IMG/VR virus record: IMGVR_UViG_3300028666_000023
Coordinates: 89,104-153,103 of that record
DNA length: 64,000 nucleotides
Source: a virus
Strand: one strand, 5' to 3'
The position numbers and the translations under genes are program-made. Shown one piece after another: positions 1,053 through 61,663 of the stretch. Under the pieces are notes generated by a model, which was not told where the DNA came from, did not search any database, and saw nothing but the letters and a program-made list of their open reading frames with translations. Each line of letters opens with the position of its first letter. The stretch's first letter is position 1.

Positions 1053-1076
1053 GTTCCCTCGCTCCCTTATTCCTCG
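1053..1076 (-). promoter_or_regulatory. ATAAG box plus ribosome site
   Basis: On the minus strand GAGGAATAAGG is followed by GAGGGA and then the ATG at 1050. It lies in the 28-nt gap after the stop of the zinc-finger gene at 1079. It is one member of the recurrent element seen across the window, and the promoter role is inferred. Confidence 0.5.
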
Positions 1077-1078
1077 GG

Positions 1079-1309
1079 TCAGAGGCGATTGAAGAAACTG
1101 TCCCAGTCGTCGCGTTCGCGCTCGACATCGGCCTGCGTTCCTCCACCGCGACAGGCGTCGCACGCGTTGAAGGTGCCATCTGGGTCGTACCCAGATCCAT
1201 GGCAGTGCGTACAGTGCTCGAGGATTTCGTCCTCGGTGGCTAGAAGAGAGGCGCGCTCGTCTTCAGTAATCTCCGAAGCCACTGGTCTTGATGGTGAGGT
1301 CGATGCCAT
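1079..1309 (-). CDS. DnaJ-like zinc-finger mini-protein 1 of tandem array
   Basis: A 76-aa protein with CTHCHGSG and CDACRGGG, two CxxCxGxG half-knuckles as found in the DnaJ cysteine-rich domain, enough to bind one zinc. It lacks a J domain and is far too short to be a co-chaperone. The Glu-rich stretch before the cysteines (ATEDEILEHC) aligns with its neighbours. It overlaps the upstream paralogue by 47 nt. The exact role is unknown; protein or RNA binding is the usual inference for such knuckles. Confidence 0.7.
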   Translation of the reverse strand: MASTSPSRPVASEITEDERASLLATEDEILEHCTHCHGSGYDPDGTFNACDACRGGGTQADVERERDDWDSFFNRL

Positions 1310-1496
1310 GAAGGTCTGGTTGCTCCACTCTGATGTAGCCCTCGCCTTTGCACTTGCGGCAGGGATCGGCGCTGCCGTCTCCGTACGAGAACCCAACGCC
1401 CTGCCCTTGGCACTGCGGACAGGTGACGAGGTCGTACTTCGGGCCCATGATCTTTTGCTCGGTCTCCCGCAGCGTGCACTTCTCGTCCTCTGTCAC
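1263..1496 (-). CDS. DnaJ-like zinc-finger mini-protein 2
   Basis: 77 aa with CPQCQGQG and CRKCKGEG spaced by about 20 residues, preceded by the family motif LRETEQKIMG. ATGA-type junction with the upstream paralogue at 1493-1496. No other domain. Clearly related to the adjacent genes by the E-x-x-E-x-x-[IV]-[ML]-G lead-in. Confidence 0.75.
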   Translation of the reverse strand: MTEDEKCTLRETEQKIMGPKYDLVTCPQCQGQGVGFSYGDGSADPCRKCKGEGYIRVEQPDLHGIDLTIKTSGFGDY

Positions 1497-1708
1497 TTGA
1501 AGTGCCTGTACCGCTGAATGTTTGGTCCACCGGCGCTGATGCGGCTAGTGACGGTGCCCTTCATATTGAAGCCGGCCTTCCACCACCACGTGTAGCCGCG
1601 ATGCTCGCAGACGGCGCAGCCAGCCTTGAGGCACCACTCGCAGTCGCGCTTCTCGTAGCCGAGGACGGTCATCTCGACGACCTCGAGCGCCTTCTGTTCT
1701 TCATCCAT
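1493..1708 (-). CDS. DnaJ-like zinc-finger mini-protein 3 (degenerate)
   Basis: 71 aa starting MDEEQKALEVVEMTVLGY. Cysteines are CEWC then CAVC with a much shorter spacing, and the Gly positions of CxxCxGxG are partly lost (CEHRGY). This is a divergent copy of the tandem family. The start is fixed by a short overlap with the next gene upstream (1701-1708). Confidence 0.7.
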   Translation of the reverse strand: MDEEQKALEVVEMTVLGYEKRDCEWCLKAGCAVCEHRGYTWWWKAGFNMKGTVTSRISAGGPNIQRYRHFK

Positions 1709-1955
1709 CGAGTTCCTCCCAATCTGGATCGACTCCGGTTCCGATGAAGTATTTGACACCGAGCTTGTCCCTCCAGAAGTAGCCGTGCCCATTACAACCG
1801 ATGCAGGCGACCCACGTCTTCACGGCGCGAGGGCTCTCGAAGAAGTAACGAGACGTTCCGTTGCAGTCGTAGCATTGGAAGCGGGTGTAGCCGAGAATTG
1901 TGAGTTCGGTCTCCTGCAGCTTCTGGCGATCGTTGCACGCTTCAATCTTCGTCAT
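1701..1955 (-). CDS. DnaJ-like zinc-finger mini-protein 4
   Basis: 84 aa with the lead-in LQETELTILGY, then CYDCNGTS and CIGCNGHGYFW. Both Cys pairs are intact and the second retains the Gly pattern. Overlaps its upstream neighbour by 14 nt. Same family as the genes on either side. Confidence 0.75.
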   Translation of the reverse strand: MTKIEACNDRQKLQETELTILGYTRFQCYDCNGTSRYFFESPRAVKTWVACIGCNGHGYFWRDKLGVKYFIGTGVDPDWEELDG

Positions 1956-2262
1956 CGATGTACGCCTCGCTTTCCCATCCCTGCGGGTCGACCCAGATCT
2001 TGCCCGAGCCGTCGCAGAGAGCGCATGGCCGATCTTCCATCACGCTGTTGTAGGTCCCGCCGCTGCCCTCGCAATCACCGCACTTGCCGACGTACCAGCC
2101 CATGACAAGACGCTCGGTCTCGATGAGGCGGCGTTCTTCTGCGAGCAGCTGGAGGAGCACGGTGATCTTGTAGAGCGCACTGTCCGCACAACGAAGACGC
2201 TCCTTCGCCAGCAGCCGACGACTCTCGTGCAGTTCTCGTAGCCGCTGGGTATCAGTCACCAC
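1942..2262 (-). CDS. DnaJ-like zinc-finger mini-protein 5 (long form)
   Basis: 106 aa from a GTG start. An N-terminal extension of about 50 residues (a probable Arg/Leu-rich helix) precedes the family lead-in LIETERLVMGW and two complete knuckles, CGDCEGSG and CALCDGSG. It overlaps the small membrane ORF upstream by 11 nt, which supports the GTG. Confidence 0.72.
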   Translation of the reverse strand: MVTDTQRLRELHESRRLLAKERLRCADSALYKITVLLQLLAEERRLIETERLVMGWYVGKCGDCEGSGGTYNSVMEDRPCALCDGSGKIWVDPQGWESEAYIDDED

Positions 2263-2350
2263 GCCACCACCGCCAACGAAAGAGGTAGTAGTACTTCACG
2301 GTGGCCACCGTGACGATGGGAACGATCACCCATAGGTAGTTGTGATTCAT
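2252..2350 (-). CDS. Small single-pass membrane protein (32 aa)
   Basis: Reads MNHNYLWVIVPIVTVATVKY then a Tyr/Trp/Arg-rich tail. One hydrophobic span (residues 6-18) and positively charged C-terminus. Support comes from GGGGAGG 8 bases upstream of ATG and an 11-nt overlap with the next gene. Function unknown; it sits inside the zinc-finger array. Confidence 0.6.
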   Translation of the reverse strand: MNHNYLWVIVPIVTVATVKYYYLFRWRWWRGD

Positions 2351-2370
2351 CGGTCGAACCTCCCCTCGTG

Positions 2371-3160: not shown

Positions 3161-3184
3161 TTCCCTCCTGATTACTTATGCCTC
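3161..3184 (-). promoter_or_regulatory. ATAAG box variant plus ribosome site
   Basis: Minus strand GAGGCATAAGT then CAGGAGGGA before the ATG at 3156. The box overlaps the stop codon of the upstream gene at 3176. It differs from the consensus GGRATAAG by a C at the third position. Confidence 0.45.
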
Positions 3185-5692: not shown

Positions 5693-5717
5693 ACTTCCTC
5701 CGAATTCCTTATTCCCT
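5693..5717 (-). promoter_or_regulatory. ATAAG box plus ribosome site after a terminator
   Basis: Minus strand GGGAATAAGGAATTCGGAGG about 10 bases before the ATG at 5687, directly downstream of the terminator at 5725-5749. The terminator-box-GGAGG-ATG order is one of the clearest in the window. Confidence 0.55.
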
Positions 5718-6390: not shown

Positions 6391-6416
6391 GTGCCTCCAT
6401 TGTTCTTATTCCGCGG
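6391..6416 (-). promoter_or_regulatory. ATAAG box plus ribosome site
   Basis: Minus strand CGGAATAAGAACAATGGAGGC before ATG at 6384. It overlaps the 3' end region of the upstream membrane protein gene (stop at 6421). Confidence 0.52.
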
Positions 6417-6948: not shown

Positions 6949-7115
6949 GTCGATTGCTCCTCGGGTTCGTTGAGTCGGCGCCACTCGCGACCGGCTTCCT
7001 GCAAGAGGGCAGCGAGGTTGGCGCGGAGCTCAGGGAGATCGCGCTCGCAGCCCTTCACGAGCGTGTCGAGCTGGCGGTGCGAGATGCGGATGTCGGTGGC
7101 ATCACCTACGAACAT
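6945..7115 (-). CDS. Unknown 56-aa helical protein
   Basis: Reads MFVGDATDIRISHRQLDTLV, then an amphipathic helix to EEQST. It is 12 nt from a GGAGG. A closer ATG (7122) opens only a six-codon frame in another phase, so the real start may be regulated by that mini-ORF. Confidence 0.55.
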   Translation of the reverse strand: MFVGDATDIRISHRQLDTLVKGCERDLPELRANLAALLQEAGREWRRLNEPEEQST

Positions 7116-7126
7116 GTTCCATGGAT

Positions 7127-7150
7127 GCCTCCTACTGTTCTTATTCCTTG
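7127..7150 (-). promoter_or_regulatory. ATAAG box plus ribosome site
   Basis: Minus strand AAGGAATAAGAACAGTAGGAGGC. The box overlaps the stop of the 139-aa gene at 7141, so the unit restarts right at the gene boundary. Confidence 0.52.
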
Positions 7151-7560
7151 GTGTTGCGCTCCGTCTTTCCTACGCCGCCAGGCTCCTTCCCGGACGCGTC
7201 GGAGGGGCGGGCGGCCGCGAAGTATTGCGTGGTGAGCGCCACGATTTGACGTCCCGTTTCGACGCACGCGGGGCAAGCCGGGTGATTCGATATTAGCTCG
7301 GCATTGCAGTGCTCCACTTGAGCGCCCATGCGATGCACCTCATCGATGATGGCCTCCGCCCGCTCCGCTCTTGCCCGCCACGCCTCGGCGGATGCGAGGG
7401 CTTTCAGATCGGCGAGGAACGGGTCAGCCTCGAAGTCCGCGACGCCTTTGCCGCCAGTTTCGTGACGGCCCACGATGTAGATCATCGGCTTGCCGTGGAC
7501 TCGCGCCATCTCGATCGCTAGTTCCAAGTTTGGAATCAACTCGTCAATACCGGGCTTCAT
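7141..7560 (-). CDS. Unknown 139-aa protein with CPAC
   Basis: Starts MKPGIDELIPNLELAIEMAR. Contains PMIYIVGRHETGGKG, a helical middle and HPACPACVETGRQIVAL near 105. Possibly a small alpha/beta protein with one zinc half-site. Unknown role. Confidence 0.65.
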   Translation of the reverse strand: MKPGIDELIPNLELAIEMARVHGKPMIYIVGRHETGGKGVADFEADPFLADLKALASAEAWRARAERAEAIIDEVHRMGAQVEHCNAELISNHPACPACVETGRQIVALTTQYFAAARPSDASGKEPGGVGKTERNTKE

Positions 7561-7565
7561 CTCCT

Positions 7566-7889
7566 TCACTTGCCTTGCTCCTTCCCCGCGTCGGGCGCGT
7601 CCCGATCGCACGACCCGAGATCGTTCAGTGCGCACTCTGGGCATCGCGGCTCCGCCCCGGGCGCGTCTTGCGCGAGGGCGGTGCGAGCAATCTTGTGCGC
7701 GCCGGGTCCGGTGTCACCGTTCGCTATGCGCTCCAGCGCCGCCCGGAATCGCTCCGCGCGTGCCAGCTGCGCCCGCAGCGCGTCCCGGCATCGCGCGTCC
7801 GTGTGCGTGCACCCTGACGCGAACTTTTCCCAAAGTCGGCCATCGTCGTTCTCCAGCTCCGTCCCGCACCCGTGCTCGCAGAGTGTCAT
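7566..7889 (-). CDS. Unknown 107-aa Cys-rich protein
   Basis: Starts MTLCEHGCGTELENDDGRLW, an N-terminal CxxxC knuckle, followed by an Arg/Ala-rich helix and a second cluster CPECALNDLGSC. Four or more Cys could bind one zinc across the helical linker. Confidence 0.65.
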   Translation of the reverse strand: MTLCEHGCGTELENDDGRLWEKFASGCTHTDARCRDALRAQLARAERFRAALERIANGDTGPGAHKIARTALAQDAPGAEPRCPECALNDLGSCDRDAPDAGKEQGK

Positions 7890-7891
7890 GG

Positions 7892-8038
7892 TCACTCCTT
7901 CGGTTTGGTTGTCTTCGCGGGCCAGCTCGCTGCTCGCTTGCACACCGGGCAGTACTTCGGCGGAGTCGAGCCCATCAGCGGTCGGCCGCATTCTGGGCAG
8001 TGTGTGTATCCCATCTGCGTGTACTCGGTGCTCGTCAT
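7892..8038 (-). CDS. 48-aa zinc ribbon protein
   Basis: MTSTEYTQMGYTHCPECGRP then CPVCKRAAS. A complete minimal zinc ribbon (CPEC, about 15 residues, CPVC). Start overlaps the upstream stop by 4 nt. Function unknown. Confidence 0.68.
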   Translation of the reverse strand: MTSTEYTQMGYTHCPECGRPLMGSTPPKYCPVCKRAASWPAKTTKPKE

Positions 8039-8703
8039 AGTATTTCCTCGACGGGATACGCGCCTCGACCCACCCGCTTCAACTGCTCGCGGATACTCTT
8101 CAGCGCGATGGCCTTGTTCTTCAAGAGGGATTCTTCCACATCCGAAAATGCTCGAACGTCCGCATGTCCGAGGTGCGTGATTCGGACCCAGCAATAGTTG
8201 CCCAAGCCGCTGGTGCCCGCGAAGACGCCCGTCCCTCCCCCGATGCCGGTCTCCACCCGGATGTCCTCCTCCTCGATCTCCGGCCACTCCGGAAGCGGCT
8301 CGTCCCACTTCCGGCCGCAGTACAGACACACCTCCCAGCGAGGACCCTCTGGAGGTCCCTGCCCTAAGCGGATGTAGCTCATGTGCCCGTCGGTACGGCC
8401 GTTGGGGGTCACGCAGGGGGCGTCGTAGAACTTGCCCATGTAGAGCTGGGTGGCCCCGCAGCTGTAGCAGCGCGGGAACTTCCCGGGCTCGCGATCGATG
8501 CGGTCTTCGCACTTGCAGTGCACGCACTTCCCCGAGTGGTCCAGCGCAGCGACGTAGTGCTGAGGGGAGGGCCCGCTGTCTACGTGGGTGGGGTACCCGT
8601 GGGGCAGATGGAGCTCGTGGCCCGCGCTGGGCACGGGGAACTGCGAGGGCAGCGGGAGCTTGAGGGGACTAACGGGTCTTCGGCGCGGCTTTTTGGAGGG
8701 CAT
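8035..8703 (-). CDS. Unknown 222-aa multi-zinc-site protein
   Basis: Start MPSKKPRRRPVSPLKLPLPS is taken from the frame and position; earlier in-frame ATGs fall in the upstream gene. Three Cys pairs (CVHCKCED, CYSCGAT, CLYCGRKWDE) and a Gly-rich VETGIGGGTGVFAG segment. C-terminal helix. No known family. Confidence 0.65.
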   Translation of the reverse strand: MPSKKPRRRPVSPLKLPLPSQFPVPSAGHELHLPHGYPTHVDSGPSPQHYVAALDHSGKCVHCKCEDRIDREPGKFPRCYSCGATQLYMGKFYDAPCVTPNGRTDGHMSYIRLGQGPPEGPRWEVCLYCGRKWDEPLPEWPEIEEEDIRVETGIGGGTGVFAGTSGLGNYCWVRITHLGHADVRAFSDVEESLLKNKAIALKSIREQLKRVGRGAYPVEEIL

Positions 8704-9142
8704 CTTTGATCTCCTGAAGGTGGATGCATTCACGGCATGTCGGTGCGCGCACCTCGGCGTACGCATGCCGGATGCTCTTGCCGCAGAAGGCCTCGTACTC
8801 GTTCTTCTGTCGATGCCAGAAGTGATCGAGGCCAAGGCTGACGTTGAAGACCGGCGTGGTGGAGGGAACCGGCGATTCGGTTTGCGGCATCGTGCTCGGG
8901 AAGTCGCCCTCCACGAGTACGGTCACCTTCACCGGGAAGATCTCGTACTTCTTGGGAGAGACACTGCTGCCGAAGTACAACTTCGCGATGCTGAGCGCTT
9001 CTTCTCTGCTGCGAAGAAGCGAGCCCTTGCTGATGCGTTGTGCCGACAGATGCGATGGGCCCCAACTGCCGCCCATCTCGGTGATGAAGCCGCTGTCCAC
9101 GCGCAGAAGAAACCGCTCCTGGCTCCAGCTCTCTTTGCTCAT
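8669..9142 (-). CDS. Unknown 157-aa protein
   Basis: MSKESWSQERFLLRVDSGFI start. Contains a beta-rich middle (KKYEIFPVKVTVLVEGDFPS) and HAYAEVRAPTCRECIHLQEI near the end with CREC. Overlaps the next gene by 35 nt. Confidence 0.67.
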   Translation of the reverse strand: MSKESWSQERFLLRVDSGFITEMGGSWGPSHLSAQRISKGSLLRSREEALSIAKLYFGSSVSPKKYEIFPVKVTVLVEGDFPSTMPQTESPVPSTTPVFNVSLGLDHFWHRQKNEYEAFCGKSIRHAYAEVRAPTCRECIHLQEIKDALQKAAPKTR

Positions 9143-9379
9143 TTAGTACTCCCGCGGCTCTTCTGGCGTGTACAAGAAGCTGCTGCCCCACGGGATGGAG
9201 GGGTACGCCTGTTTGAAGAGCAGCTGCTTCATGAGGCGCTCGGCCGACTCCTTGCCCTCACGACGCTTGGAGTCCACCTCTTGGACGGCGTCCCAGTGGT
9301 CCTTGCAGAGAGGAATCTGGTCCACGGAGCCGTAGTACTTGCGCGAACACGCGATGCAGGCTTCGTCGTGGATGCTCAT
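9143..9379 (-). CDS. Unknown 78-aa protein with zinc knuckle
   Basis: MSIHDEACIACSRKYYGSVD, with CIAC, then LCKDHWDAV. The C-x2-C ... C-x2-H pattern suggests a treble clef. ATGA junction upstream. Confidence 0.68.
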   Translation of the reverse strand: MSIHDEACIACSRKYYGSVDQIPLCKDHWDAVQEVDSKRREGKESAERLMKQLLFKQAYPSIPWGSSFLYTPEEPREY

Positions 9380-9618
9380 CGGTGGATCAACCAGCTGGGC
9401 GCGGTGCCGCGCGCGTCGATGATGCGAGGTGCGATGCCGAAGACGCGGTGGCACCACTCCACGCCCTTGCCGGCCTGCATCTCGAGCTGCGCGACGGCGT
9501 CCGCCTCTTCACCGAGGAAGGGCAGACCCGCGAGTGGGATGGTCTCGTCGAGCTCGAACAAGATGGTGTCGGCGAGATCTGTTTTGCGAACCGTGACGCT
9601 CAAAACGTGGATGTTCAT
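9376..9618 (-). CDS. Unknown 80-aa protein
   Basis: MNIHVLSVTVRKTDLADTIL start, beta-rich first half and a Trp/Cys-containing core (GVEWCHRVFGIAPRII). Coupled by 4-nt overlaps to both neighbours. No family recognised. Confidence 0.67.
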   Translation of the reverse strand: MNIHVLSVTVRKTDLADTILFELDETIPLAGLPFLGEEADAVAQLEMQAGKGVEWCHRVFGIAPRIIDARGTAPSWLIHR

Positions 9619-10001
9619 GTGACCTCCGGTGGATACCGCGTGCCCCCCGTCTTCTCAGGGTCGCACTCGGCGCATGTACACGTGTTCTTGGGCACGAGCC
9701 CATGGTTGATGCCGCGCGGGTTGTTGCACGGGCACCCATCGGCGATGCGATAGTTCTTGGGCATGATGAAGCGGTCGCAGCCTCGGCAACGCTTCAAGTC
9801 CTTGAGGTGACCCTCGAGGAAGTCCGCCCACTCCTGCGCGTGGTGATTCTGCGCGTAGACGGTGCGCATCTCTTTGATGGCCTCATCTGCGCGGTGAAGG
9901 TGCTCGGCGAGTTGTTCTCCCACCGAGCCAGGACACGGCATGTGGTCTCGGTGGTCATCAGGCGTGCGGAAGTTCTCCCCGCACGTGCATGTGTCGTTCA
10001 T
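9615..10001 (-). CDS. Unknown 128-aa Cys-rich protein
   Basis: MNDTCTCGENFRTPDDHRDH at the N-terminus, a helical middle, then CRGC, CPCNN and CTCAEC clusters. At least nine cysteines. Probably a multi-zinc protein. The start overlaps the upstream stop. Confidence 0.67.
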   Translation of the reverse strand: MNDTCTCGENFRTPDDHRDHMPCPGSVGEQLAEHLHRADEAIKEMRTVYAQNHHAQEWADFLEGHLKDLKRCRGCDRFIMPKNYRIADGCPCNNPRGINHGLVPKNTCTCAECDPEKTGGTRYPPEVT

Positions 10002-10759
10002 GTCTTTTTCCTCAGGAGGTTGCGAAGCCCGTCACGTAGCGGCAGGTAATCGCGATCGTCGAGGTACGCCGAAGCTTCACCGATGCATGCCTCGACGGCC
10101 TCGTCCCATTCCTTGTCTTTGATTTCCTTCGTCTGAATGCGCTCGCCCGTGCAGCCGTTACAAGCGCACACGCAGCTGTCGTCGTTGGTGCAACCGAACG
10201 ACCAAACTTCGCAGTGCGCCACCGGGGCAGCGCCCTCGATCGCCTTGATGGTCTCTTCACCGAGTGGCTTGCGCTCCGGGCAGCCCTTGAAGTGACGGCG
10301 AGGGTCCTTGGCCTGGATGTGCGGACATGTGCAGGTGCTCGACTTGAAGGCTTCGATCTTGGCGAGCGCCGCTTTGGCCGCATCATCGGGATGCTGCGGC
10401 GCGGTCTGGCCGCAGGAGATTTCGGTGAGCGCCACTTCCGCTACACCGATGGTGCGCCCATCGATGAAGGCTTGTACTTCCTTGCCCTGCTCGAAGGCAT
10501 TGCCCTCAATCTCACCGAGCGTCTTGCCGGGGCTCTTGCCCGTGCCGTTGCAGAGCGTGCAGGGCTCGTCGGTGTACTCCTTGGGCGGGAGCTTCTCGTT
10601 GAGGCGCGCGTAGACCTCGGGCGCCGCATCCTTGAGGGCCTCGAGCTTGTCGAAGGCCTCCACGAGTGGCCAGTTGCCCGAAGTGCCTGACCACCCACCC
10701 TGCTCGTACACGAGCCGAGCTGCGGGGATGAGCGCGTCGATGATGTTCTTGTCGTTCAT
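9998..10759 (-). CDS. Unknown 253-aa protein with DnaJ-like knuckle
   Basis: ATG at 10759 follows AGGAG by 5 bases. Helical N-terminus (MNDKNIIDALIPAARLVYEQ), CTLCNGTGKSPG around 67-78 (one CxxCxGxG unit), then CTCPH and a cluster CVCACNGC. The single knuckle links it loosely to the mini-protein array at 1-3 kb. Confidence 0.68.
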   Translation of the reverse strand: MNDKNIIDALIPAARLVYEQGGWSGTSGNWPLVEAFDKLEALKDAAPEVYARLNEKLPPKEYTDEPCTLCNGTGKSPGKTLGEIEGNAFEQGKEVQAFIDGRTIGVAEVALTEISCGQTAPQHPDDAAKAALAKIEAFKSSTCTCPHIQAKDPRRHFKGCPERKPLGEETIKAIEGAAPVAHCEVWSFGCTNDDSCVCACNGCTGERIQTKEIKDKEWDEAVEACIGEASAYLDDRDYLPLRDGLRNLLRKKT

Positions 10760-10761
10760 GT

Positions 10762-11029
10762 TCAACTCCTGATGGTCTCGGTGAGCGTCGGAAGGACGGG
10801 GCGCTCGCGCGTCCCGTAGATCATGCGCAGCTTCACCTGCGTGCCGAAGGGATGCGCTTTAGAGGGGAGCATGAGGCCGGCGAGGATGACCTTCACCAGG
10901 TACGAGTCCCCGTACTTGTCCCTCAGTCGCCTGACTTCAGTCGCGAAGCCGACGATCTCCTTTGCTTGCTTGCTTGCGCATCGTTCGCAGAGAGACCGGG
11001 CTCTTTTTCTTTTTCGTCTTCATGCTCAT
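10762..11029 (-). pseudogene. Zinc-knuckle gene split by a frameshift
   Basis: ATG at 11029 (ATGA overlap with upstream gene) opens MSMKTKKKK and would stop after 30 codons at 10937. The +1 frame, entered in the AAAAAG-AAAAAG run, reads RARSLCERCASKQAKEIVGF and continues to a stop at 10762 that abuts the next gene. The joined product would be about 88 aa with CERC. This is either programmed +1 (or -2) slippage or a one-base indel in the A-run, natural or from sequencing. Confidence 0.55.
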
Positions 11030-11355
11030 CTCCGTTTGGGCCTGAGGTTGTAGCCATGCTTCTCGGCGAGCGACTTGAGCATCGCAACCTCGGTGTCGCG
11101 GTACCCGAGATGCAAGCCGCTGATGGGCGTGCCCATGTTGCCTCCAATGAGGACGGGCACGAGTTGATCTGCGTGGTGCGTCTCGATGACGTGCGCCGCA
11201 TTCACGTGGTTGAGCGCGGGCACTTCGATCATCGTCTTCGTGCCGAGCAGCATGGGCTGCGCGCATGCCTTTGCGAGGTTCTCGCCGAACGCGGGGTCTC
11301 TCATGATGGCCGAGAGCGCGTCGTTGAGAACTACTACCGTTGTGTTGTACCCCAT
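11026..11355 (-). CDS. Unknown 109-aa protein
   Basis: MGYNTTVVVLNDALSAIMRD start, alpha/beta character (QLVPVLIGGNMGTPISGLHL). Basic C-terminus KPKRR-like. ATGA junction with the downstream frameshifted gene. Function not recognised. Confidence 0.67.
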   Translation of the reverse strand: MGYNTTVVVLNDALSAIMRDPAFGENLAKACAQPMLLGTKTMIEVPALNHVNAAHVIETHHADQLVPVLIGGNMGTPISGLHLGYRDTEVAMLKSLAEKHGYNLRPKRR

Positions 11356-11835
11356 CTATTTCTTGTCCTTGTCACCGAGGAGCTTGTCGAGATCTTCTTG
11401 TGCACGCTCTTGACCGCGCTCGTGTGCGAGGTCGAGCAGCGCACCCTTGTACGCATCCTCGTAGCGCGCGTTCACCGCCTTCTTGAGCGCCTCAGGCAGC
11501 TTCTTGTCGAGGTTCTTCTCCTCCGCTTTGAGGTAGCGCTCCATGAGGACCTGCGCGCGCTTCTGAGCGGTCGCCTCGACCAGCTTGGCGATCGGCGAGT
11601 TCCACTTCACCTCCACGCGACTGAAGGCTTCGTCGATGCCCACCGCACGATCGATCGCGGAGTTCAGGAGTCGCTCGAGGCGACTGTGGACATACGAATG
11701 GATGCGGTGGTCGTCGCCGAGGTGCGCTGCAACCCATTCATGCGCCGCGGCGAGCAGAGCTCGACGGACACGCGCGGGTAGAACTTCTTCGTCCGGCTTG
11801 GCCGGCTTCTCTTTCTTTTCTTCGAACAGTCCCAT
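11356..11835 (-). CDS. Unknown 159-aa charged helical protein
   Basis: MGLFEEKKEKPAKPDEEVLP start, then almost entirely helical and Lys/Glu/Ala-rich, ending LDKLLGDKDKK. Low cysteine. Could be a scaffold-like or coiled-coil protein. No family recognised. Confidence 0.67.
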   Translation of the reverse strand: MGLFEEKKEKPAKPDEEVLPARVRRALLAAAHEWVAAHLGDDHRIHSYVHSRLERLLNSAIDRAVGIDEAFSRVEVKWNSPIAKLVEATAQKRAQVLMERYLKAEEKNLDKKLPEALKKAVNARYEDAYKGALLDLAHERGQERAQEDLDKLLGDKDKK

Positions 11836-11842
11836 GTGGACC

Positions 11843-12226
11843 TCACGGAATCGTAGGTTTCTGTTTGTGCTTCTTCGCACGCGGCGCTTCTGGAAGCGCG
11901 CGGTTCAACGTGTCTTGGTAGCGGCGGTTACGACGCGCCTGCTCTTGTAGTCGGTCCACGTCGAGGTAGACCTCGGGCGTGGTGGAGAGCGATCGCATGC
12001 GTCCCTCTTTGGGCTTCCAGTCCGGCGTGACCTTCAGCACGGGTAGATCGCTCTTGGGTGCGCGCGTCTCGAAGAACTCGGGGTGCATGAGCTCAACGAC
12101 GATGCGATGGCAGCACGTGCCCACCCAGATCTTGAGGCCATCGGGCAAGGTGAGACGAAAGACGGCAGCGCGCTTGATGCCACACGCCCAGCATGTGCTG
12201 TCGTCCTTCTCGTCCTTAGTCGGCAT
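11843..12226 (-). CDS. Unknown 127-aa protein with CWAC
   Basis: Starts MPTKDEKDDSTCWACGIKRA, then beta strands (VFRLTLPDGLKIWVG) and TCCHRIVVELM, giving a plausible zinc ribbon. The tail is basic (ARRNRRYQDTLNRALPE). Confidence 0.67.
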   Translation of the reverse strand: MPTKDEKDDSTCWACGIKRAAVFRLTLPDGLKIWVGTCCHRIVVELMHPEFFETRAPKSDLPVLKVTPDWKPKEGRMRSLSTTPEVYLDVDRLQEQARRNRRYQDTLNRALPEAPRAKKHKQKPTIP

Positions 12227-12677
12227 CGAACTTCTCTGGGGGGATCTCTGCCCAATCGCAGCCGCACGTGTAGCACTGGTAGTGCATGTGCACGCAGTCG
12301 AGATCTCCGTTTGCGGTGCATTGCGAGTCGGACTGGCGGAAGTGGGCGGAGTCCAAATCCAAGGTGTGCGGGCCGACGTGACGCCCTCGGAAACGGATGT
12401 CGTGATCACTGTGGCAACGAGGGCATTCATCCTGCGGGTTGTAGAGCCAACCCTTTTCTTCTTCGGGTTCTACCGTCGCCGGTGCTCCGGGCGAGCTGCC
12501 CGAGCGATACGGATGACCAGAGACGGGCTCCTCGGTGTCCGCATCCTCCTCTTCGAACTCTTCTTGGGCTGCTTTGCGCCCGTCCCTGAAGCCGAGCCAT
12601 CGAGAGAGTATGACGCCGGGCAGAGCGGCTACAATTCCCGCCGCCAGCTCCATCAGCTCGAACTCGAAGTTGATCAT
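12216..12677 (-). CDS. Unknown 153-aa protein, hydrophobic N-terminus and zinc ribbon
   Basis: Starts MINFEFELMELAAGIVAALP. Residues 10-24 are hydrophobic and could form a short membrane anchor. An acidic linker leads to CPRCHSDHDIRF and a second CYTCGCDW. Role unknown. Confidence 0.65.
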   Translation of the reverse strand: MINFEFELMELAAGIVAALPGVILSRWLGFRDGRKAAQEEFEEEDADTEEPVSGHPYRSGSSPGAPATVEPEEEKGWLYNPQDECPRCHSDHDIRFRGRHVGPHTLDLDSAHFRQSDSQCTANGDLDCVHMHYQCYTCGCDWAEIPPEKFDAD

Positions 12678-13045
12678 GCGTCTCTCCGATGTGCCGTTCG
12701 CAGGAAGCGGATGAACCTGTTCTTGTCGTCGAACTCGGCACTGATGAAGCCCGCCTTGTTGGTCTCGGGGTCGAGGCCCACGAGCCCATTGAGAAGACCG
12801 AGCAGACCGAGCTCGCTCCAATCGGTGCCGCGCGGCGCCGAGTCTTCAACGTAGACGGTCTGGATGCGCTCGTGCTTCGCCGTTGCCACCGAACACTTGA
12901 TGCGCTCTTCGATCAACTTGCCGATGTCCTCTTTGATGTCGATGTGCTCGTTGCAGAGCATGTTGAGCCGCGCGATGAGCTCGTCGGCCAACTCCTCATC
13001 TTGCACGGCGGGCACGGTTCGGCGCACTCGGTTGTTCTTTCCCAT
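12674..13045 (-). CDS. Unknown 123-aa protein
   Basis: Starts MGKNNRVRRTVPAVQDEELA, helical (ADELIARLNMLCNEHIDIKE), with a Leu/Gly-rich segment and a basic end. It lies in a 50-nt overlap with its upstream neighbour. Confidence 0.63.
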   Translation of the reverse strand: MGKNNRVRRTVPAVQDEELADELIARLNMLCNEHIDIKEDIGKLIEERIKCSVATAKHERIQTVYVEDSAPRGTDWSELGLLGLLNGLVGLDPETNKAGFISAEFDDKNRFIRFLRTAHRRDA

Positions 13046-13445
13046 TGTCTTCCTCCTCACGGAACCAGTTGTAGTGATCGAGCCACCGATGATGTCGCTC
13101 CATGTCGCCCTTCTTACTGGGCTCGACGATGCCCACCATTGCAAGGCCAAGGCGCGTGCCCGGTAGGCGGATGCGCTCTTGGAAGTCGTTGGCGACGGCA
13201 ACGCGTGCCATCTCCCACGTAGGCACGGAGGACAGGCGCATCAACGTCCACGCTGCATTGCATTCGCGGCAGATGGGCTCCTTCGTCTCGACGTCCATCG
13301 GACACTGCACCACCAGAGTGGATTGAAGCGGTTGCACCGTCTCGTTGCGAATCTTGCCTTGCTGCGCAAGCCGCATGCACTTGGGGCAGGGCGGAAGAAT
13401 CTCTTCTTCCAGTTGTTCTTTCACACGTTTTTCCAGGGAAGGCAT
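12996..13445 (-). CDS. Unknown 149-aa protein with two CxxC pairs
   Basis: MPSLEKRVKEQLEEEILPPC start behind TGGAGG and an ATAAG box. CPKC at 20-23 and CREC at about 59-62 form a likely zinc site, with WTLMRLSSVPTWEMARVAVA after it. First gene of a unit that follows a terminator. Confidence 0.68.
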   Translation of the reverse strand: MPSLEKRVKEQLEEEILPPCPKCMRLAQQGKIRNETVQPLQSTLVVQCPMDVETKEPICRECNAAWTLMRLSSVPTWEMARVAVANDFQERIRLPGTRLGLAMVGIVEPSKKGDMERHHRWLDHYNWFREEEDNGKEQPSAPNRARRAR

Positions 13446-13452
13446 GTATTAC

Positions 13453-13474
13453 TTCCTCCAGATTCCTTATTCCT
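13453..13474 (-). promoter_or_regulatory. ATAAG box plus ribosome site after a terminator
   Basis: Minus strand GAGGAATAAGGAATCTGGAGG, 8 bases before ATG at 13445. The terminator at 13491-13518 ends in TTTTAGCTACC just upstream. Confidence 0.55.
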
Positions 13475-13490
13475 CGCTCGAGTGGGTAGC

Positions 13491-13518
13491 TAAAAGAAAG
13501 GGCGCCGAAGCGCCCTCC
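13491..13518 (-). terminator. Intrinsic terminator
   Basis: Minus strand AGGGCGC-TTCG-GCGCCCT followed by TTCTTTTAGC. Located 2 bases after the stop of the 147-aa gene. Confidence 0.8.
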
Positions 13519-13519
13519 C

Positions 13520-13963
13520 TCACCCCACCCAAGTACGGGCGGCCGCCTCGTCGATTAGGCGAACAAAACGAGCCTGCCCATTCCCCTCAGTGGAAACGGT
13601 CAGAAAGCCCACCTCTCCCTGAAGACGGATGAGGAGTAGACGAAACGTGGTGGACTTCATCTGCAGCTCATCGGCCAGCGATGTGGTCAACTTTCCAATG
13701 GAGGGCTGCGCGCATGCGAGAAGAATCCGTACCAGGGCTTTTGCTTTTTTCTGGTACGTCCCTTCTCCAATGCGACGGTTGATGACTCGCTCACGCTTTG
13801 TGGTGTCGCTCGGTTGGCTCTGTGCCGCGGTGTACACACGCTCTAGGAGTAATCTCTCCAACAGAGCGATCACGCGCTCTTGTTGGGAAGACAACGTGTC
13901 GAGGCGTTGTAGTACCTCATCGCCAAAGGCGAAGAGGCTACCCTCACTCTTGGATTTGGGCAT
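13520..13963 (-). CDS. Putative winged-helix DNA-binding protein (147 aa)
   Basis: MPKSKSEGSLFAFGDEVLQR start at a TGATG junction with the ParB-like gene. Residues 15-45 form a predicted coiled coil. The C-terminal 80 residues (KALVRILLACAQPSIGKLTT, SLADELQMKSTTFRLLLIRL) look like a winged helix-turn-helix with a final beta wing. Likely acts with the upstream gene. The domain assignment is by pattern only. Confidence 0.6.
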   Translation of the reverse strand: MPKSKSEGSLFAFGDEVLQRLDTLSSQQERVIALLERLLLERVYTAAQSQPSDTTKRERVINRRIGEGTYQKKAKALVRILLACAQPSIGKLTTSLADELQMKSTTFRLLLIRLQGEVGFLTVSTEGNGQARFVRLIDEAAARTWVG

Positions 13964-18045: not shown

Positions 18046-18070
18046 GTTCCTCCAATTTTCTTATTCCCAG
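18046..18070 (-). promoter_or_regulatory. ATAAG box plus ribosome site
   Basis: Minus strand GGGAATAAGAAAATTGGAGGA before ATG at 18042. The box overlaps the stop codon of the 94-aa gene (18061). Confidence 0.53.
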
Positions 18071-20557: not shown

Positions 20558-20580
20558 GGCCTCCAGATTCCTTATTCCGG
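20558..20580 (-). promoter_or_regulatory. ATAAG box plus ribosome site after a terminator
   Basis: Minus strand CCGGAATAAGGAATCTGGAGG, 8 bases before ATG at 20552, following the terminator at 20584-20611. Confidence 0.55.
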
Positions 20581-23483: not shown

Positions 23484-23507
23484 AGCCTCCAAGACCCTTA
23501 TTCCGCG
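23484..23507 (-). promoter_or_regulatory. ATAAG box plus ribosome site
   Basis: Minus strand CGGAATAAGGGTCTTGGAGGC before ATG at 23481. It lies in the 30-nt gap after the stop of the 89-aa gene at 23512. Confidence 0.53.
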
Positions 23508-28221: not shown

Positions 28222-28246
28222 TGCCTCCATAGTTCTTATGCCTGGG
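28222..28246 (-). promoter_or_regulatory. ATAAG box variant plus ribosome site
   Basis: Minus strand CAGGCATAAGAACTATGGAGGC before ATG at 28219. The third base of the box is C, as at 3174. Confidence 0.5.
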
Positions 28247-31151: not shown

Positions 31152-31187
31152 TGTTCTCCGTACTTCTTATTCCGAGCACGGAGAACT
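31152..31187 (-). promoter_or_regulatory. ATAAG box inside an inverted repeat
   Basis: Minus strand GTTCTCCGT-(16 nt)-ACGGAGAAC: the 9-bp arms lie at 31178-31186 and 31153-31161, and the loop carries CGGAATAAGAAG. The proximal arm contains the ribosome site GGAG for the ATG at 31149, so the RNA hairpin would hide it. This differs from other box sites and could be a regulatory version. Confidence 0.5.
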
Positions 31188-33525: not shown

Positions 33526-33743
33526 TCCATCAGCTGCTCTTTGCTTGGGTCGCATGGGATCGAAAGGCTCATCGTGAGGATGTCTTCATCCGGGATGGAC
33601 CGGATGCGCTTCGCCTTGATGTCGTCGACCGCGAAGCCGTTGATGAAGGAGAAGAAGTCGCGCGCGTCATGCGGCGTCTCGGCAACCACCCAGAAGTCGG
33701 AGTCGCCGTTGTCGGTGGTGCACCAGTAGAGACCGAGGCTCAT
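33351..33743 (-). CDS. Unknown 130-aa protein
   Basis: MSLGLYWCTTDNGDSDFWVV, AETPHDARDFFSFINGF and GVEYNSSFHVFYIGKKIFRP: a pattern of a small alpha/beta protein found in phages (WCTTDxxxDDWF). Its last 30 residues (arginine-rich) overlap the next gene and may not be the native end. Confidence 0.62.
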   Translation of the reverse strand: MSLGLYWCTTDNGDSDFWVVAETPHDARDFFSFINGFAVDDIKAKRIRSIPDEDILTMSLSIPCDPSKEQLMEWGVEYNSSFHVFYIGKKIFRPESTVRHLMITHAKRAHTARGRSGRNASLRLVGPSST

Positions 33744-35685: not shown

Positions 35686-35707
35686 ACTCCCAGGAGTCTT
35701 ATTGCCT
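35686..35707 (-). promoter_or_regulatory. ATAAG box variant plus ribosome site
   Basis: Minus strand TAGGCAATAAGACTCCTGGGAG before ATG at 35680. The box core is GGCAATAAGA, and the ribosome site is GGGAG rather than GGAGG. Confidence 0.5.
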
Positions 35708-41943: not shown

Positions 41944-42227
41944 TTGCGCACCCGGCGCCGGCCCTTCATGTTGCCGAGCGCGAGGAGGAACATCTTCGCG
42001 ACGAACTGGCAGTGCCGCTTGCCTTCTTTGCGGTCGTCGGTTTCCGCCAGGGTGAAGTACTGGACGCCGACACGGAAGAAGGTCTTGTACGTCACGCGAC
42101 GACCCCACTTGAAGGTCTCCACGTAGACGGCCCACGTCTTCTGTTTCTTCTGCACCTGCTTGGCCGCGCGCGTGGCACTCGCAAGCCGTTCGAGCTCATG
42201 TTCGATCGGCGATGTGACCTTCTTCAT
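41940..42227 (-). CDS. Unknown 95-aa basic protein
   Basis: MKKVTSPIEHELERLASATR start. Tyr/Arg-rich middle (WAVYVETFKWGRRVTYKTFF, RVGVQYFTLA) and basic C-terminus GNMKGRRRVRK. Follows the sigma-like gene with a one-base overlap. Unknown. Confidence 0.66.
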   Translation of the reverse strand: MKKVTSPIEHELERLASATRAAKQVQKKQKTWAVYVETFKWGRRVTYKTFFRVGVQYFTLAETDDRKEGKRHCQFVAKMFLLALGNMKGRRRVRK

Positions 42228-43051
42228 CAGTCTTCTTCTTCGTGGTCGTACCCCATGAACCTCTTCAGAGTGCCGAGCATCTGCGTCTTCATGTGGGAGA
42301 TCTGTTGATCGGTCTTCTTCATCTTCTTTGCGAGCAGGCCCGTCGATGTGATCTGGGGATGGTCGTTCGTTCCGAAGACGTGGTTGAAGAGCGTGTGCAT
42401 CTCGGGCTTCTGGGGGAAGAGATCGTGCAGCGACTTCGACGCCACAGCGATCTGCTCGTCCTCGAAGCTCGGGAAGTGGTCGTCCATCCCCTCGAGCGAG
42501 CTCGCCGGAACGTCACGACGTTGTGCCTTCAACACGGTGTCGATTCGCTTGGCAGAGATGTTCTGGAACTCTTGTTCCCCGCTCGACTGCAGATGTGACG
42601 CGATCTCCGTGCTCGTCGGCTCGCGCCCGTACTGCTCGGTGAGCTCCTCCTTCGCCACGTTGATGGGCGTGATGAGCGCAGCCTGGCCCGCGGGGATGTA
42701 GGCCATGTTCTGGTTCTTGAGGTTGTACCGCTGCGCCTTGCGGAGGCGGTAGTTCACGTGCGTGTTGAGAGACGCGCCCTTGTTCGGGTCGTACGTCTCG
42801 AGCGCGTTGATGAAGTGCTTCTGGAGCTCTCCCTTGAATGCGCTCTCCGGCGCCGCGTGCGGCGCGCGGTAGTGCCGCATGCGCATCTGCATGAGCGGCT
42901 CGTACGCTTTGAGCAGGGGCTCGAGGTGCTCGGGCTTGCGCGTCTTGTACCAGCGCTTCCAGAGATCGAGCTCCTGCTCCTTTCGGTCAGCCTTCGCGGC
43001 TTCCTTCGCTTGGAGGTGAACCTCCAACGGATTCGGTTTGCGCGCTGCCAT
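42227..43051 (-). CDS. Putative sigma-70-like factor, 274 aa
   Basis: Residues 44-115 (LKAYEPLMQMRMRHYRAPHA, HFINALETYDPNKGASLNTH, VNYRLRKAQRY) resemble sigma region 2, with the YDPxKGxxxxTHxxYxxR hallmark. GREPTSTEIASHL at 142-154 matches the GREPTxxEIAxxL of region 3. TGLLAKKMKKTDQQISHMKT then MLGTLKRFMGY fits the region 4 HTH outline. So it is probably a phage RNA-polymerase specificity factor, and it could direct the ATAAG-box units. Start MAARKPNPLEVHLQAKEAAK is set by the in-frame Met within a 65-nt overlap. Confidence 0.68.
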   Translation of the reverse strand: MAARKPNPLEVHLQAKEAAKADRKEQELDLWKRWYKTRKPEHLEPLLKAYEPLMQMRMRHYRAPHAAPESAFKGELQKHFINALETYDPNKGASLNTHVNYRLRKAQRYNLKNQNMAYIPAGQAALITPINVAKEELTEQYGREPTSTEIASHLQSSGEQEFQNISAKRIDTVLKAQRRDVPASSLEGMDDHFPSFEDEQIAVASKSLHDLFPQKPEMHTLFNHVFGTNDHPQITSTGLLAKKMKKTDQQISHMKTQMLGTLKRFMGYDHEEED

Positions 43052-45145: not shown

Positions 45146-45172
45146 TTTCCTCCGTGGTTCTTATTCCTCGGA
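45146..45172 (-). promoter_or_regulatory. ATAAG box plus ribosome site
   Basis: Minus strand GAGGAATAAGAACCACGGAGGA before the GTG at 45143. The box overlaps the stop of the 105-aa gene at 45161. Confidence 0.55.
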
Positions 45173-58294: not shown

Positions 58295-58341
58295 ACTAGA
58301 GGCCAAAAGTAGCCTCCGCAAAGGCAAATTTAGGGCCCTTG

Positions 58342-58363
58342 GAGGGATAAGGATCTTGGAGGC
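58342..58363 (+). promoter_or_regulatory. ATAAG box plus ribosome site
   Basis: GAGGGATAAGGATCTTGGAGGC before ATG at 58370. This is the first plus-strand unit and sits opposite the minus-strand tape-measure start. Confidence 0.58.
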
Positions 58364-58721: not shown

Positions 58722-58743
58722 TAGGGATAAGACCTTTGGAGGC
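58722..58743 (+). promoter_or_regulatory. ATAAG box plus ribosome site after a terminator
   Basis: TAGGGATAAGACCTTTGGAGGC before ATG at 58751, following the terminator at 58664. Consensus form of the recurring element. Confidence 0.6.
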
Positions 58744-58750: not shown

Positions 58751-59317
58751 ATGAACTTCAAATCAACAGCACTTGTACTCTTCGGCATTCTCATCGCCTG
58801 CGGAAGCAGCGCCGTCGGGGGTACCGACGACGCCAAAGCAGACAACCAGTGCACCTGCACCGGCGAAAAGGGAGCTCAAGGAGCGCCTGGTCTCGACGGC
58901 GCACAAGGCCCGGCGGGTGCGCCCGGCGCGGCAGGACCCGAGGGACCCCAAGGTCCGCAGGGACTTCAAGGAGCCGAGGGCCCGCAAGGGGTTCAAGGAC
59001 CCCAAGGCGCGCAGGGTGCGGCCGGGAAGGACGGCACCATCACTTCGAAGACCGCGCTCTACGCCGTGCAGAGCAGCGTGACCGTCCCCGCCAACAGCGG
59101 TGCGACGGTGAAGGCTGCGTGCAGCGACGCCAACGACATCCTTCTCAGCGGCAGCTGCTGGGGAGGTGGTTCGCTGGGGCAGAACCCGGTGGCCCAGAGC
59201 TACCCGGAGAACGTCGCGACGACGTCGCTCACGGCCGACTGGTACTGCGACGGCGTCAACGCGAGCTCGTCGAGCTTCCAGCTCACCGCCACGGCTGTCT
59301 GCGTGTCGGTCCCCTGA
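58751..59317 (+). CDS. Collagen-like lipoprotein, 188 aa
   Basis: [20 protein letters not shown] carries a signal peptide with lipobox LIAC (Cys 17). Residues 38-94 form 19 uninterrupted Gly-X-Y triplets, rich in Gln, Pro and Ala, able to form a collagen-like triple helix. The C-terminal 90 residues are beta-rich with pairs of cysteines ([21 protein letters not shown]). A phage-encoded surface lipoprotein of this type could change host receptor access or serve as a moron. Alone in its transcript. Confidence 0.82.
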
Positions 59318-59380: not shown

Positions 59381-59402
59381 CAGGGATAAGAGCTTTGGAG
59401 GC
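59381..59402 (+). promoter_or_regulatory. ATAAG box plus ribosome site after a terminator
   Basis: CAGGGATAAGAGCTTTGGAGGC before ATG at 59409. Confidence 0.6.
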
Positions 59403-59826: not shown

Positions 59827-59854
59827 TGGGGGTCCTCCGGGACCCCTTCTTTTT
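59827..59854 (+). terminator. Intrinsic terminator
   Basis: GGGGTCC-TCC-GGGACCCC followed by TTCTTTTTAGCCTCC, 5 nt after the stop of the 82-aa gene. Confidence 0.85.
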
Positions 59855-59886: not shown

Positions 59887-59910
59887 CAGGAATAAGAAGG
59901 ATGAAGGAGG
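59887..59910 (+). promoter_or_regulatory. ATAAG box plus ribosome site after a terminator
   Basis: CAGGAATAAGAAGGATGAAGGAGG before ATG at 59917. Here the third base is A, as on most minus-strand copies, whereas the other plus copies have G. Confidence 0.58.
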
Positions 59911-59916
59911 CTACGT

Positions 59917-60216: not shown

Positions 60217-60488
60217 TCTTCATGGTCCTCGCCGCCGGCGCCCTCGTGGGCGTGGTGACGAAGCTGGCGGCACCGGTGCGAAAGCTCCGGGCCGCCACGG
60301 ACATGATGGCGGGGTTGAAACGAGGGGAGATGAAGCAGCCGATGCGTCTCGAGCTGCTGCTGTCCCTCGAGCAGTTCGACCGCCTCATGGGCGATCGCGA
60401 GGTGGAGCTCGCGTTCATCGAGATGTCCGCTCTCAGACGGACGGGCGCAGTACCGGTCTGCCACGAGTGTGGCGGAGCCTGCGTGTGA
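60213..60488 (+). CDS. Unknown 91-aa membrane-associated zinc protein
   Basis: GTG start overlapping the upstream TGA. MIFMVLAAGALVGVVTKLAA, a short hydrophobic N-terminus, then an amphipathic helix and CHECGGACV at the C-terminus. Might act with the upstream membrane protein. Confidence 0.62.
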   Translation: MIFMVLAAGALVGVVTKLAAPVRKLRAATDMMAGLKRGEMKQPMRLELLLSLEQFDRLMGDREVELAFIEMSALRRTGAVPVCHECGGACV

Positions 60489-60730
60489 AACACGCGCGGG
60501 ATCGAGGAACAAGAAAGATGTGGGGGTTCTACGGAGGCAACGTGGAAGGAAAAGAACCGTCTCTCAAGCATTCACTTTTCAACGAGCTGCGGGAGGTCGG
60601 TCTGTCGCTGGAAACACCGGAGGCAGACACCCCGAGGCAGCAAAAACGCCACGGAAACAGGGATAAGAACACTGGAAGGAAAGTAGTTGTGCTTCCAACC
60701 AGGGAAAACAAACAGGAGGAATCAGTCATC
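60489..60730 (+). promoter_or_regulatory. 242-nt region with an ATAAG box
   Basis: GGGATAAGAACACTGGAAGG lies at 60660-60679, and a second GGAGG at 60717 precedes the ATG at 60731. The downstream reading frame stays open back to about 60467, and GGAGGCAAC-GTG at 60533-60543 could start a longer form. The shorter form was chosen because of the box. Nothing else convincing is seen. Confidence 0.45.
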
Positions 60731-61018
60731 ATGAACCAGCCCAGCACGAACGAGAACCAGCCGACGTCGACCTCGAGCATCGAGACGGCAGCGGCCAGGA
60801 TCGGTGAGTCCCTGCAATCGGACATGACCCACGCGGTGCGCGAGATGCACACCCTGCGGCGTCGATTCGAAGAGCAGCACTCGCTGAAAGCGGAGTTGAT
60901 CCGCGGTGGCGCCATGTTCGCCTTGATCACCGGTGCGGTGGTCGCGGGCGGCTTGGTCGTCAACAAAGTCATCACGCGCGGTCAGCCGGACTTCCCCGCC
61001 GGCAAACCGACGAAGTGA
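60731..61018 (+). CDS. Single-TM protein, 95 aa
   Basis: MNQPSTNENQPTSTSSIETA start, a charged helical region (REMHTLRRRFEEQHSLKAEL), then TM segment GGAMFALITGAVVAGGLVVN and a basic tail. Could be tail-anchored. Start uncertain as the same frame is open upstream. Confidence 0.6.
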   Translation: MNQPSTNENQPTSTSSIETAAARIGESLQSDMTHAVREMHTLRRRFEEQHSLKAELIRGGAMFALITGAVVAGGLVVNKVITRGQPDFPAGKPTK

Positions 61019-61025
61019 CGGACAA

Positions 61026-61056
61026 GAAAGAGGCCGCTTCGCGGCGTGCCTCTTTC
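61026..61056 (+). terminator. Intrinsic terminator (weak U-tract)
   Basis: GAAAGAGGC-CGCTTCGCGGCGT-GCCTCTTTC, 8 nt after the stop. Stem is good, the U-tract is only the end of the stem. Confidence 0.65.
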
Positions 61057-61315
61057 ACTACATCCGGAGGCTCATCCAGAAGAACTACGTGAGAGCCATG
61101 CCATCACGCCTCCAGGCCTCTGACTCTCACTTCGCGCGCGCCCAGCCCCCTCAGTTTTCCACCCGGCTCCTTCCCGTGGTCTTTCCTGAGGGGGTCGGGC
61201 GCGTTTTTAGCTACCGGGCTGGGTCAGATGTTGTTGTCAAGATCGTCATGTTCTTTTTACTTGCAGTACTGATCCCCCGACCGTACTTTTACCTCAAGAA
61301 GAAAGGAGCCCGCCC
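61057..61315 (+). other. Structured 259-nt intergenic region
   Basis: Contains GTGAGAG...CTCTCAC arms at about 61089 and 61123, then a long-armed terminator at 61137-61208: CGCGCCC(AG)CCCCCTCAG against CTGAGGGGGTCGGGCGCG with a 31-nt loop and TTTTTAG. A TTGTCA-like element lies at 61234 but no good -10. The rest before the ATG at 61316 is unassigned. Confidence 0.55.
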
Positions 61316-61600
61316 ATGTCTCTCGATCCCGTTCTGTTCGACATCCCCCAGTTCGAGACTGCCAACGAGGCGGTCCTCTTCTGCTACGAGAAGATGCGCG
61401 AGTTCGACATGAAGTCGGAGATGAACCGCATCCGCGGCATGCTCCCCATCAACAAGCCGAGTCTCGCGCGCGCCGTTCTGCGCGAGCTGCTCTTGATGCG
61501 TCCGACCATCAAGCTGCGCGTCGTCGCCACGTACATGGACGTCGCGATCGGGGCGCTTCAACACGCTCTGTCGCAGCCGGTCTTCCTCGCCGCGAGCTGA
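61316..61600 (+). CDS. Unknown 94-aa protein
   Basis: MSLDPVLFDIPQFETANEAV start after AAGGAGCC. Helical (LRELLLMRPTIKLRVVATYM). Lies downstream of the terminator at 61208 with no ATAAG box, so its promoter is unknown. No family. Confidence 0.65.
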   Translation: MSLDPVLFDIPQFETANEAVLFCYEKMREFDMKSEMNRIRGMLPINKPSLARAVLRELLLMRPTIKLRVVATYMDVAIGALQHALSQPVFLAAS

Positions 61601-61642
61601 AACAGCCGCGTGCCGTGTCAGTAGCAAACCGGACAGCCTCCA

Positions 61643-61663
61643 AGGGATAAGAGTCTTGGAGAG
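61643..61663 (+). promoter_or_regulatory. ATAAG box plus ribosome site
   Basis: AAGGGATAAGAGTCTTGGAGAGG. The SD-spaced ATG (61669) is not the start of the gene at 61692 but opens a 64-codon frame in another phase. Confidence 0.53.

Follow-up and report, generated by a model that had tools for sequence, protein, structure and literature searches.

Box occurrence

The window analysed here is a 64-kb stretch of DNA, positions 89104-153103 of the 193,844-base virus record IMGVR_UViG_3300028666_000023 (G000). On both strands it carries a nine-base box, GGRATAAGR, placed shortly before the Shine-Dalgarno sequence (SD) and start codon of mostly small genes. It also encodes a sigma-70-family factor, and a fused RNA polymerase gene lies elsewhere in the record (Table 1). 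A first-pass annotation had joined the box to the ribosome site at 19 places, all of which exist: 16 are exact and three are one-mismatch variants. The positions it gave on the minus strand were about 10-20 bases low, marking the far end of the composite instead of the box itself (e.g., 1065-1073 and 5707-5715). Its concern that the motif might occur at background frequency was not borne out, as the 16 exact occurrences in the window compare with a mean of 0.51 and a maximum of 3 in 100 dinucleotide shuffles. The term "phage-wide" overstated the distribution. A majority of boxes in the whole record fall within the window, with a few others at record positions 4744, 5245, and 13599 on the plus strand and 73842 and 77337 on the minus strand, and no box was found before the identified structural genes of the 194-kb record.

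No close DNA match to the first 25 kb of the window was found among sequenced phages. Searches of IMG/VR recovered 239 relatives by capsid protein and 49 by DNA polymerase. The pattern GGRATAAGN{3,9}GGAG matched in 23 of 38 long relatives searched, at up to 10 per record, while its reverse matched 0-1 times. Together, 19 own sites and 79 from relatives made an alignment of 98 distinct sites. A position weight matrix (PWM) built from the relatives only found 28 sites above 14 bits in the 194-kb genome, almost all of them 23-32 nt upstream of a start codon, whereas the reversed sequence yielded 1. It also picked up the variants GGCATAAGT, GGCATAAGA, and GCAATAAGA ahead of start codons. The box was the most enriched upstream word in this genome. 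A host search matched only two metagenome-assembled contigs, whose labels (Deltaproteobacteria and Methanoregulaceae) are possibly binning errors.

Architecture of the sites

Three parts are conserved in the 98-site alignment: an upstream block, the box, and a pyrimidine-purine (YR) step. The upstream block, GCAANT, occupies a slot 14-20 nt 5' of the box (a gap of ~13 nt) and resembles a -35 element, with A in 65% of sites at -18 and 74% at -17; the first-pass annotation had seen no such block. AA at -18 occurred in 44 of the 79 relatives' sites, compared with 3.5 expected. The slot applies at every site, being clearest on the plus strand and weaker at the minus-strand sites of the original phage.

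Placing GATAAG (box positions 3-8) at -12 to -7 puts +1 at box position 15, where transcription normally starts at bacterial promoters. Consistent with this, the YR step fell at positions 14/15 in 37 of the 40 sites with an SD starting at or past position 16, where a purine at 15 is unforced; other offsets gave 0-9. The SD follows 0, 2, or 3 nt further on in most sites of this genome and its relatives, and the box-to-GGAG spacing was 5 nt in 17 of 19 exact pattern matches across the whole genome. Box start and start codon are generally 23-32 nt apart (mostly 23-29), with exceptions at 60660 (likeliest ATG 71 nt down) and 61644 (an ATG at +25 opens 64 codons only). On this geometry mRNA would begin at the SD or 1-3 nt before it, giving leaders of ~9-18 nt, close to the 15-20 nt proposed earlier though slightly shorter. 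A start codon (NTG) at box positions 13-15 was considered and dropped, since 22% of sites have C instead of T at position 14. The sites thus show the features expected of phage-sigma promoters, namely bipartite -10/-35-type blocks at fixed spacing and a YR step at the expected distance.

Variation across lineages

We also searched more distant lineages for enriched upstream words de novo. This recovered GGTATAAG in record G024, GTCATAAG in G034, and GGTATAAG in Salmonella phage Arash, with the core kept throughout. In Arash, where no exact GGRATAAG with a nearby GGAG was found, GGTATAAG was the most enriched upstream word. Across 30 aligned Arash sites, position 14 was T in 90% and position 15 a purine in 100%, with the SD lying 8-25 nt further downstream than the start step. 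Of the 30 YR-bearing sites, 29 were on the strand that holds the majority of non-structural genes; the other stands before gp9-gp10, the latter being the sigma gene. The YR step was present in all seven start-linked sites of G034, whose -35 slot is occupied by A-rich sequence, and was kept in seven of nine sites of G024. Therefore, the box and start step move together and the ribosome site does not. Plus-strand genes of Arash (loci L259, L260, and L293) show a second upstream word, TAAACTAAAAT, enriched before structural genes, which may be a late promoter.

Sigma factor and RNA polymerase

Pfam searches of the relatives returned a protein of ~255 aa with weak matches to sigma regions 2/4, and the window encodes its homolog at 38% identity (E 1e-50). 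The window protein matched Sigma70_r3 (4.3e-5) and PHROG 351, a sigma factor family (4.8e-6), and sigma factors were returned by a profile search of solved structures. Its AlphaFold2 model (mean pLDDT, the predicted local distance difference test, of 89) matched PDB sigma chains with probability 1.00; whole-chain TM-scores were low, which is what a different arrangement of the domains would produce. Regions 2, 3, and 4 are all present. Another candidate at 32845-33555, with a weak region-4 match (E 0.05), was discarded in favor of this homolog. Sigma homologs occur in 29 of 39 related records. The box stands directly before the sigma gene in G007, G008, and G014, and variant boxes do so in G018 and G021 (GGCATAAGG and GGCATAACC). 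In both the original phage and Arash, the sigma gene is close to virion-protein genes. Some relatives carry extra sigma genes, RpoD-like in G013 and FliA-like in G012 and G011, and Arash carries a second one, gp196.

The record encodes beta and beta' in a single 2162-aa chain, with RNA_pol_Rpb2_6 (1.5e-59) in the beta part, Rpb1_2 (4.9e-26) and Rpb1_5 (7.8e-15) in the beta' part, and the NADFDGD motif. Alignment of the beta' half to its cellular counterpart runs through the clamp-helix segment DLN-x-LY...K; in bacteria, the clamp helices are the main dock for sigma. Polymerase homologs were present in 37 of the 39 records, mostly as one chain of ~2150 aa. In Arash the polymerase is split between gp206 (beta and the start of beta') and gp216, and the sigma factor is gp10. 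The most detected protein in the Arash particle proteome was gp206, and gp216 and gp10 were also found (PMC10585845). No polymerase match was obtained for the large window proteins of 1192, 1025, 576, and 1066 aa, which had been considered as polymerase candidates; two of these four correspond to gp6 and gp8 of the Arash virion.

The polymerase frame is enlarged in G015 (3259 aa), G019 (2493 aa), and G030 (2477 aa) by in-frame inserts of ~1 kb near query residues 395, 795, 1420, and 1884, which are likely inteins. The box at record position 13599 (+) fires away from the polymerase gene, ~60-85 bp from the start of that gene. A box in the same place, with a small target gene, occurs beside the polymerase gene in G002/G025, G004, G006, G010, and G021.

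Genes and signals around the boxes

As shown in Table 1, the boxes mostly precede short reading frames. Few of the small proteins encoded downstream recur: of 82 in the set, 71 are singletons. Exceptions include a helix-turn-helix regulator (record position 5274) and the collagen-like protein at 58751-59317 (+), which has a lipoprotein-like start and is common to three family members. This pattern would suit accessory genes of the early or middle phase better than structural genes.

Terminator-like T-runs, counted by eye, lie 5' of roughly one in three sites of this genome, in keeping with the initial remark that several sites follow a terminator. They precede 13 of the 98 family sites, compared with a background of 4%. 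The words TAGCTA/AGCTAC mark terminator edges at record positions 5808, 17767, 40254, 86466, and 102590 and window positions 59353 and 61208, several of them between convergent genes. They were rejected as a second promoter class on the grounds that they belong to terminator edges.

Of the 19 own boxes, 10 have a CCTCC complementary to the SD (anti-SD) in the 40 nt before them, compared with 6% at other SD-ATG starts (binomial test, 5e-8). Predicted pairing of the SD was 0.85 in read-through RNA; shuffling the upstream sequence lowered it to 0.67, and starting the RNA at position 15 to 0.60. In this phage, the upstream anti-SD may silence read-through RNA.

Table 1. Boxes, associated promoter features, and transcription genes. 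Coordinates are window positions unless marked; minus-strand predicted start sites are the coordinate of box position 1 minus 14.
Feature	Coordinates	Strand	Sequence	Start codon and gene	Remarks
Box (-10)	1065..1073	-	GGAATAAGG	ATG 1050, 169 aa	exact; start distance 23
Variant box	3174..3182	-	GGCATAAGT	ATG 3156, 57 aa	relatives-only PWM 16.3
Box	5707..5715	-	GGAATAAGG	ATG 5687, 75 aa	exact; terminator-like T-run 5' of box
Box	6404..6412	-	GGAATAAGA	ATG 6384, 211 aa	exact; anti-SD GCCTCC directly upstream
Box	7139..7147	-	GGAATAAGA	ATG 7115, 56 aa	exact
Box	13465..13473	-	GGAATAAGG	ATG 13445, 149 aa	exact; T-run 5' of box
Box	18059..18067	-	GGAATAAGA	ATG 18042, 78 aa	exact
Box	20570..20578	-	GGAATAAGG	ATG 20552, 91 aa	exact; T-run 5', anti-SD GCCTCC adjoining
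Box	23496..23504	-	GGAATAAGG	ATG 23481, 77 aa	exact
Variant box	28234..28242	-	GGCATAAGA	ATG 28219, 86 aa	PWM 24.1
Box	31165..31173	-	GGAATAAGA	ATG 31149, 150 aa	exact; SD GGAGAA complemented by upstream TTCTCC
Variant box	35697..35705	-	GCAATAAGA	ATG 35680, 114 aa	PWM 12.5
Box	45159..45167	-	GGAATAAGA	GTG 45143, 187 aa (first gene)	exact; packed co-directional run ending with sigma gene
Box	58344..58352	+	GGGATAAGG	ATG 58370, 95 aa	exact; PWM 29.1
Box	58724..58732	+	GGGATAAGA	ATG 58751, 188 aa, collagen-like protein	exact; T-run 5'
Box	59383..59391	+	GGGATAAGA	ATG 59409, 55 aa	exact; T-run 5'
Box	59889..59897	+	GGAATAAGA	ATG 59917, 99 aa	exact; terminator 59828-59847 precedes
Box	60660..60668	+	GGGATAAGA	likeliest ATG 60731, 95 aa	exact; longer leader; best PWM score, 32.9
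Box	61644..61652	+	GGGATAAGA	ATG 61669 (64 aa) or 61692 (217 aa)	exact
-35-like block of box 58344	58324..58330	+	GCAAAT region		slot 14-20 nt 5' of box position 1
Predicted start site of box 58344	58358	+			box position 15, first G of GGAGG
Phage sigma-70-family factor	42227..43051	-		274 aa	homology, Pfam, PHROG, predicted fold
Single-chain fused beta-beta' RNA polymerase	7048-13536 of G000, outside window	-		2162 aa	loci L001, L261; homologs L262-L290

Interpretation and alternatives

From the layout of its sites, the box is very probably the -10 element of a promoter class, one of the two possibilities first raised for it; the -35-like block, the start-site-like step, and a phage sigma factor all point this way. 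Recognition of these promoters by the phage sigma factor seems probable, and we lean toward the phage polymerase, not the host core, as the enzyme used. We put the probability of the whole reading (phage-sigma promoters, most probably used by the phage polymerase, whose transcripts begin at the SD or just before it) at about 75%. That the virion brings in the holoenzyme and that the first genes are transcribed by it is a more tentative suggestion.

Under this reading, a promoter would consist of a -35 GCAANT, ~13 nt, GGRATAAGR at -14 to -6, a further 4-5 nt, and a YR start at box position 15. The window-encoded sigma factor would recognize the box, most probably while docked on the single-chain polymerase, and the resulting mRNA would start at the SD or just 5' of it. 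The target of each box would be a single small accessory gene or a few genes in a row. The box may also turn on the sigma gene in many family members, directly in the relatives named above and through the run headed by box 45167 here, which would amount to positive feedback. In read-through RNA of this phage, the anti-SD 5' of the box would pair with the SD, such that translation of those genes would proceed mainly from box-started RNA.

Several observations weigh against this reading. No sigma gene was detected in the box-bearing records G001 and G004, which may be incomplete. In the original genome alone the -35 signal is weak, with AA at -18 in 6 of 19 sites compared with 0.8 expected. The relatives' sites were recovered with a pattern containing GGAG, and SD proximity is therefore partly built in. 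The anti-SD is weak in relatives (9 of 79 sites), which is why we regard it as a local feature of the original phage. Arash has weak sigma70-like sites (16-18 nt spacers, at least 10/12 matches), 19 compared with 15 in a reversed control; 16 of the 19 are on the minus strand (e.g., 100665, 120466, and 54379). As these sites lie mostly on the strand of the box genes, the host polymerase may act first there. Finally, the authors of the Arash proteome themselves note that the virion enzymes may be carry-over (PMC10585845).

The likeliest alternative retains the promoters and the phage sigma factor but has sigma redirect the host RNA polymerase, like T4 gp55 or the phiEco32 sigma, leaving the phage polymerase for other genes. 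Phage sigmas usually act on the host core (PMC4331800), and the region 2/3/4 architecture is host-like, as are the possible promoters in Arash. Against this, a complete fused polymerase is near-universal in the family and accompanies sigma in Arash virions (PMC10585845), and no sigma70-like promoter with a 10/12 match or better, from which the first sigma could be made, was found in the 194 kb of the original genome. The box itself departs from the host sigma70 type (TTGACA-N16-18-TATAAT, with T at -7) in having G at -7. On balance, we consider this alternative unlikely.

Promoters for an alternative host sigma, rather than the phage factor, are far less probable. The two-block spacing resembles the layout of sigma28 promoters, and FliA-like sigma genes occur in G011 and G012. 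However, the motif varies by phage lineage along with a divergent phage sigma, and in several relatives the box precedes the sigma gene itself.

The other possibility first raised, an RNA processing or translation signal, fares worse still. A translation element bound as RNA by a protein or the ribosome would account for the box standing beside the SD and start codon in the original phage. It would also have a precedent in the start-associated sequence (SAS) of Cluster K mycobacteriophages, GGGATAGGAGCCC, which looks similar and is likewise confined to non-structural genes (PMC3203893). We consider such an element very improbable because the box-to-YR distance is fixed and the box-to-SD distance shifts, the SD being far off in Arash; the -35-like block at a fixed distance and the T-runs 5' of sites also argue against it. 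Equally improbable is a transcription-factor operator or RNase processing site, which would suit a single conserved 9-base box and its loop-like place between anti-SD and SD at several own sites, yet the box lacks dyad symmetry, the bipartite conservation and YR step fit initiation, and a hairpin operator with the box in its loop, hinted at by 10 of 19 own sites, was dropped when it proved not to be kept in relatives (9 of 79).

Comparison with known systems

Phages phiEco32 and 7-11 (of Salmonella) likewise combine a phage sigma with short, well-conserved, low-copy promoters, some of them 5' of the sigma gene (PMC4331800). These systems differ in core motif (TGATGT in 7-11) and in the proposal that sigma and an anti-sigma act on the host polymerase; a start-at-SD layout is not reported in the consulted passages of that account (PMC4331800). 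The late promoters of T4 (TATAAATA, read by the small sigma gp55) also place a -10 just 5' of the ribosome site. For T4 genes e, soc, and 49, RNA from the late promoter starts too far 3' to include the first arm of a hairpin that conceals the SD (PMC3014915), a lock similar to the one suggested here. In T4 the host core reads a -10-only element before late genes, whereas here we find a -35-like block, an unrelated type of sigma with regions 2, 3, and 4, and target genes that are for the most part small accessory ones. The SAS of Cluster K phages is comparable in that it, too, is short, G-rich, and located next to start codons of non-structural genes (PMC3203893). It is a 13-bp element that includes the SD itself and sits 3-9 bp from the start, with no -35 or start-site signature reported, whereas the box is separate from the SD and 23-32 nt from the start.

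Cellular-type phage polymerases are also known from phiKZ/AR9 jumbo phages and from P23-45 virions, paralleling the polymerase in virions of Arash, a distant cultured relative. Those enzymes are several split proteins or are fused to the tail tape, whereas beta and beta' here form one chain. Reviews describe phiKZ-type jumbo phages, with their multisubunit RNA polymerase, as lacking sigma homologs (PMC7824862, PMC13282480), and recent reviews describe sigma-encoding jumbo phages as lacking a polymerase. The present phage has both a 2162-aa single chain and a recognizable sigma gene. Arash was annotated with both polymerase and sigma in 2023, in a paper from which the word promoter is absent (PMC10585845). 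Hence, the combination of polymerase and sigma differs from published jumbo-phage systems, although each part is of a known kind.

A bolder and still tentative reading is of a large, uncultivated phage family of ~190 kb with a virion-delivered and self-sufficient holoenzyme (the single-chain polymerase plus its own sigma), -35/-10 promoters that start transcription at the SD, and anti-SD silencing of read-through RNA. In a family having both sigma and polymerase together with defined promoters, the way in which a phage polymerase locates its promoters can be studied directly, with two proteins and short templates. The promoter set also provides a means of calling genes as early or middle across hundreds of contigs from uncultivated phages.

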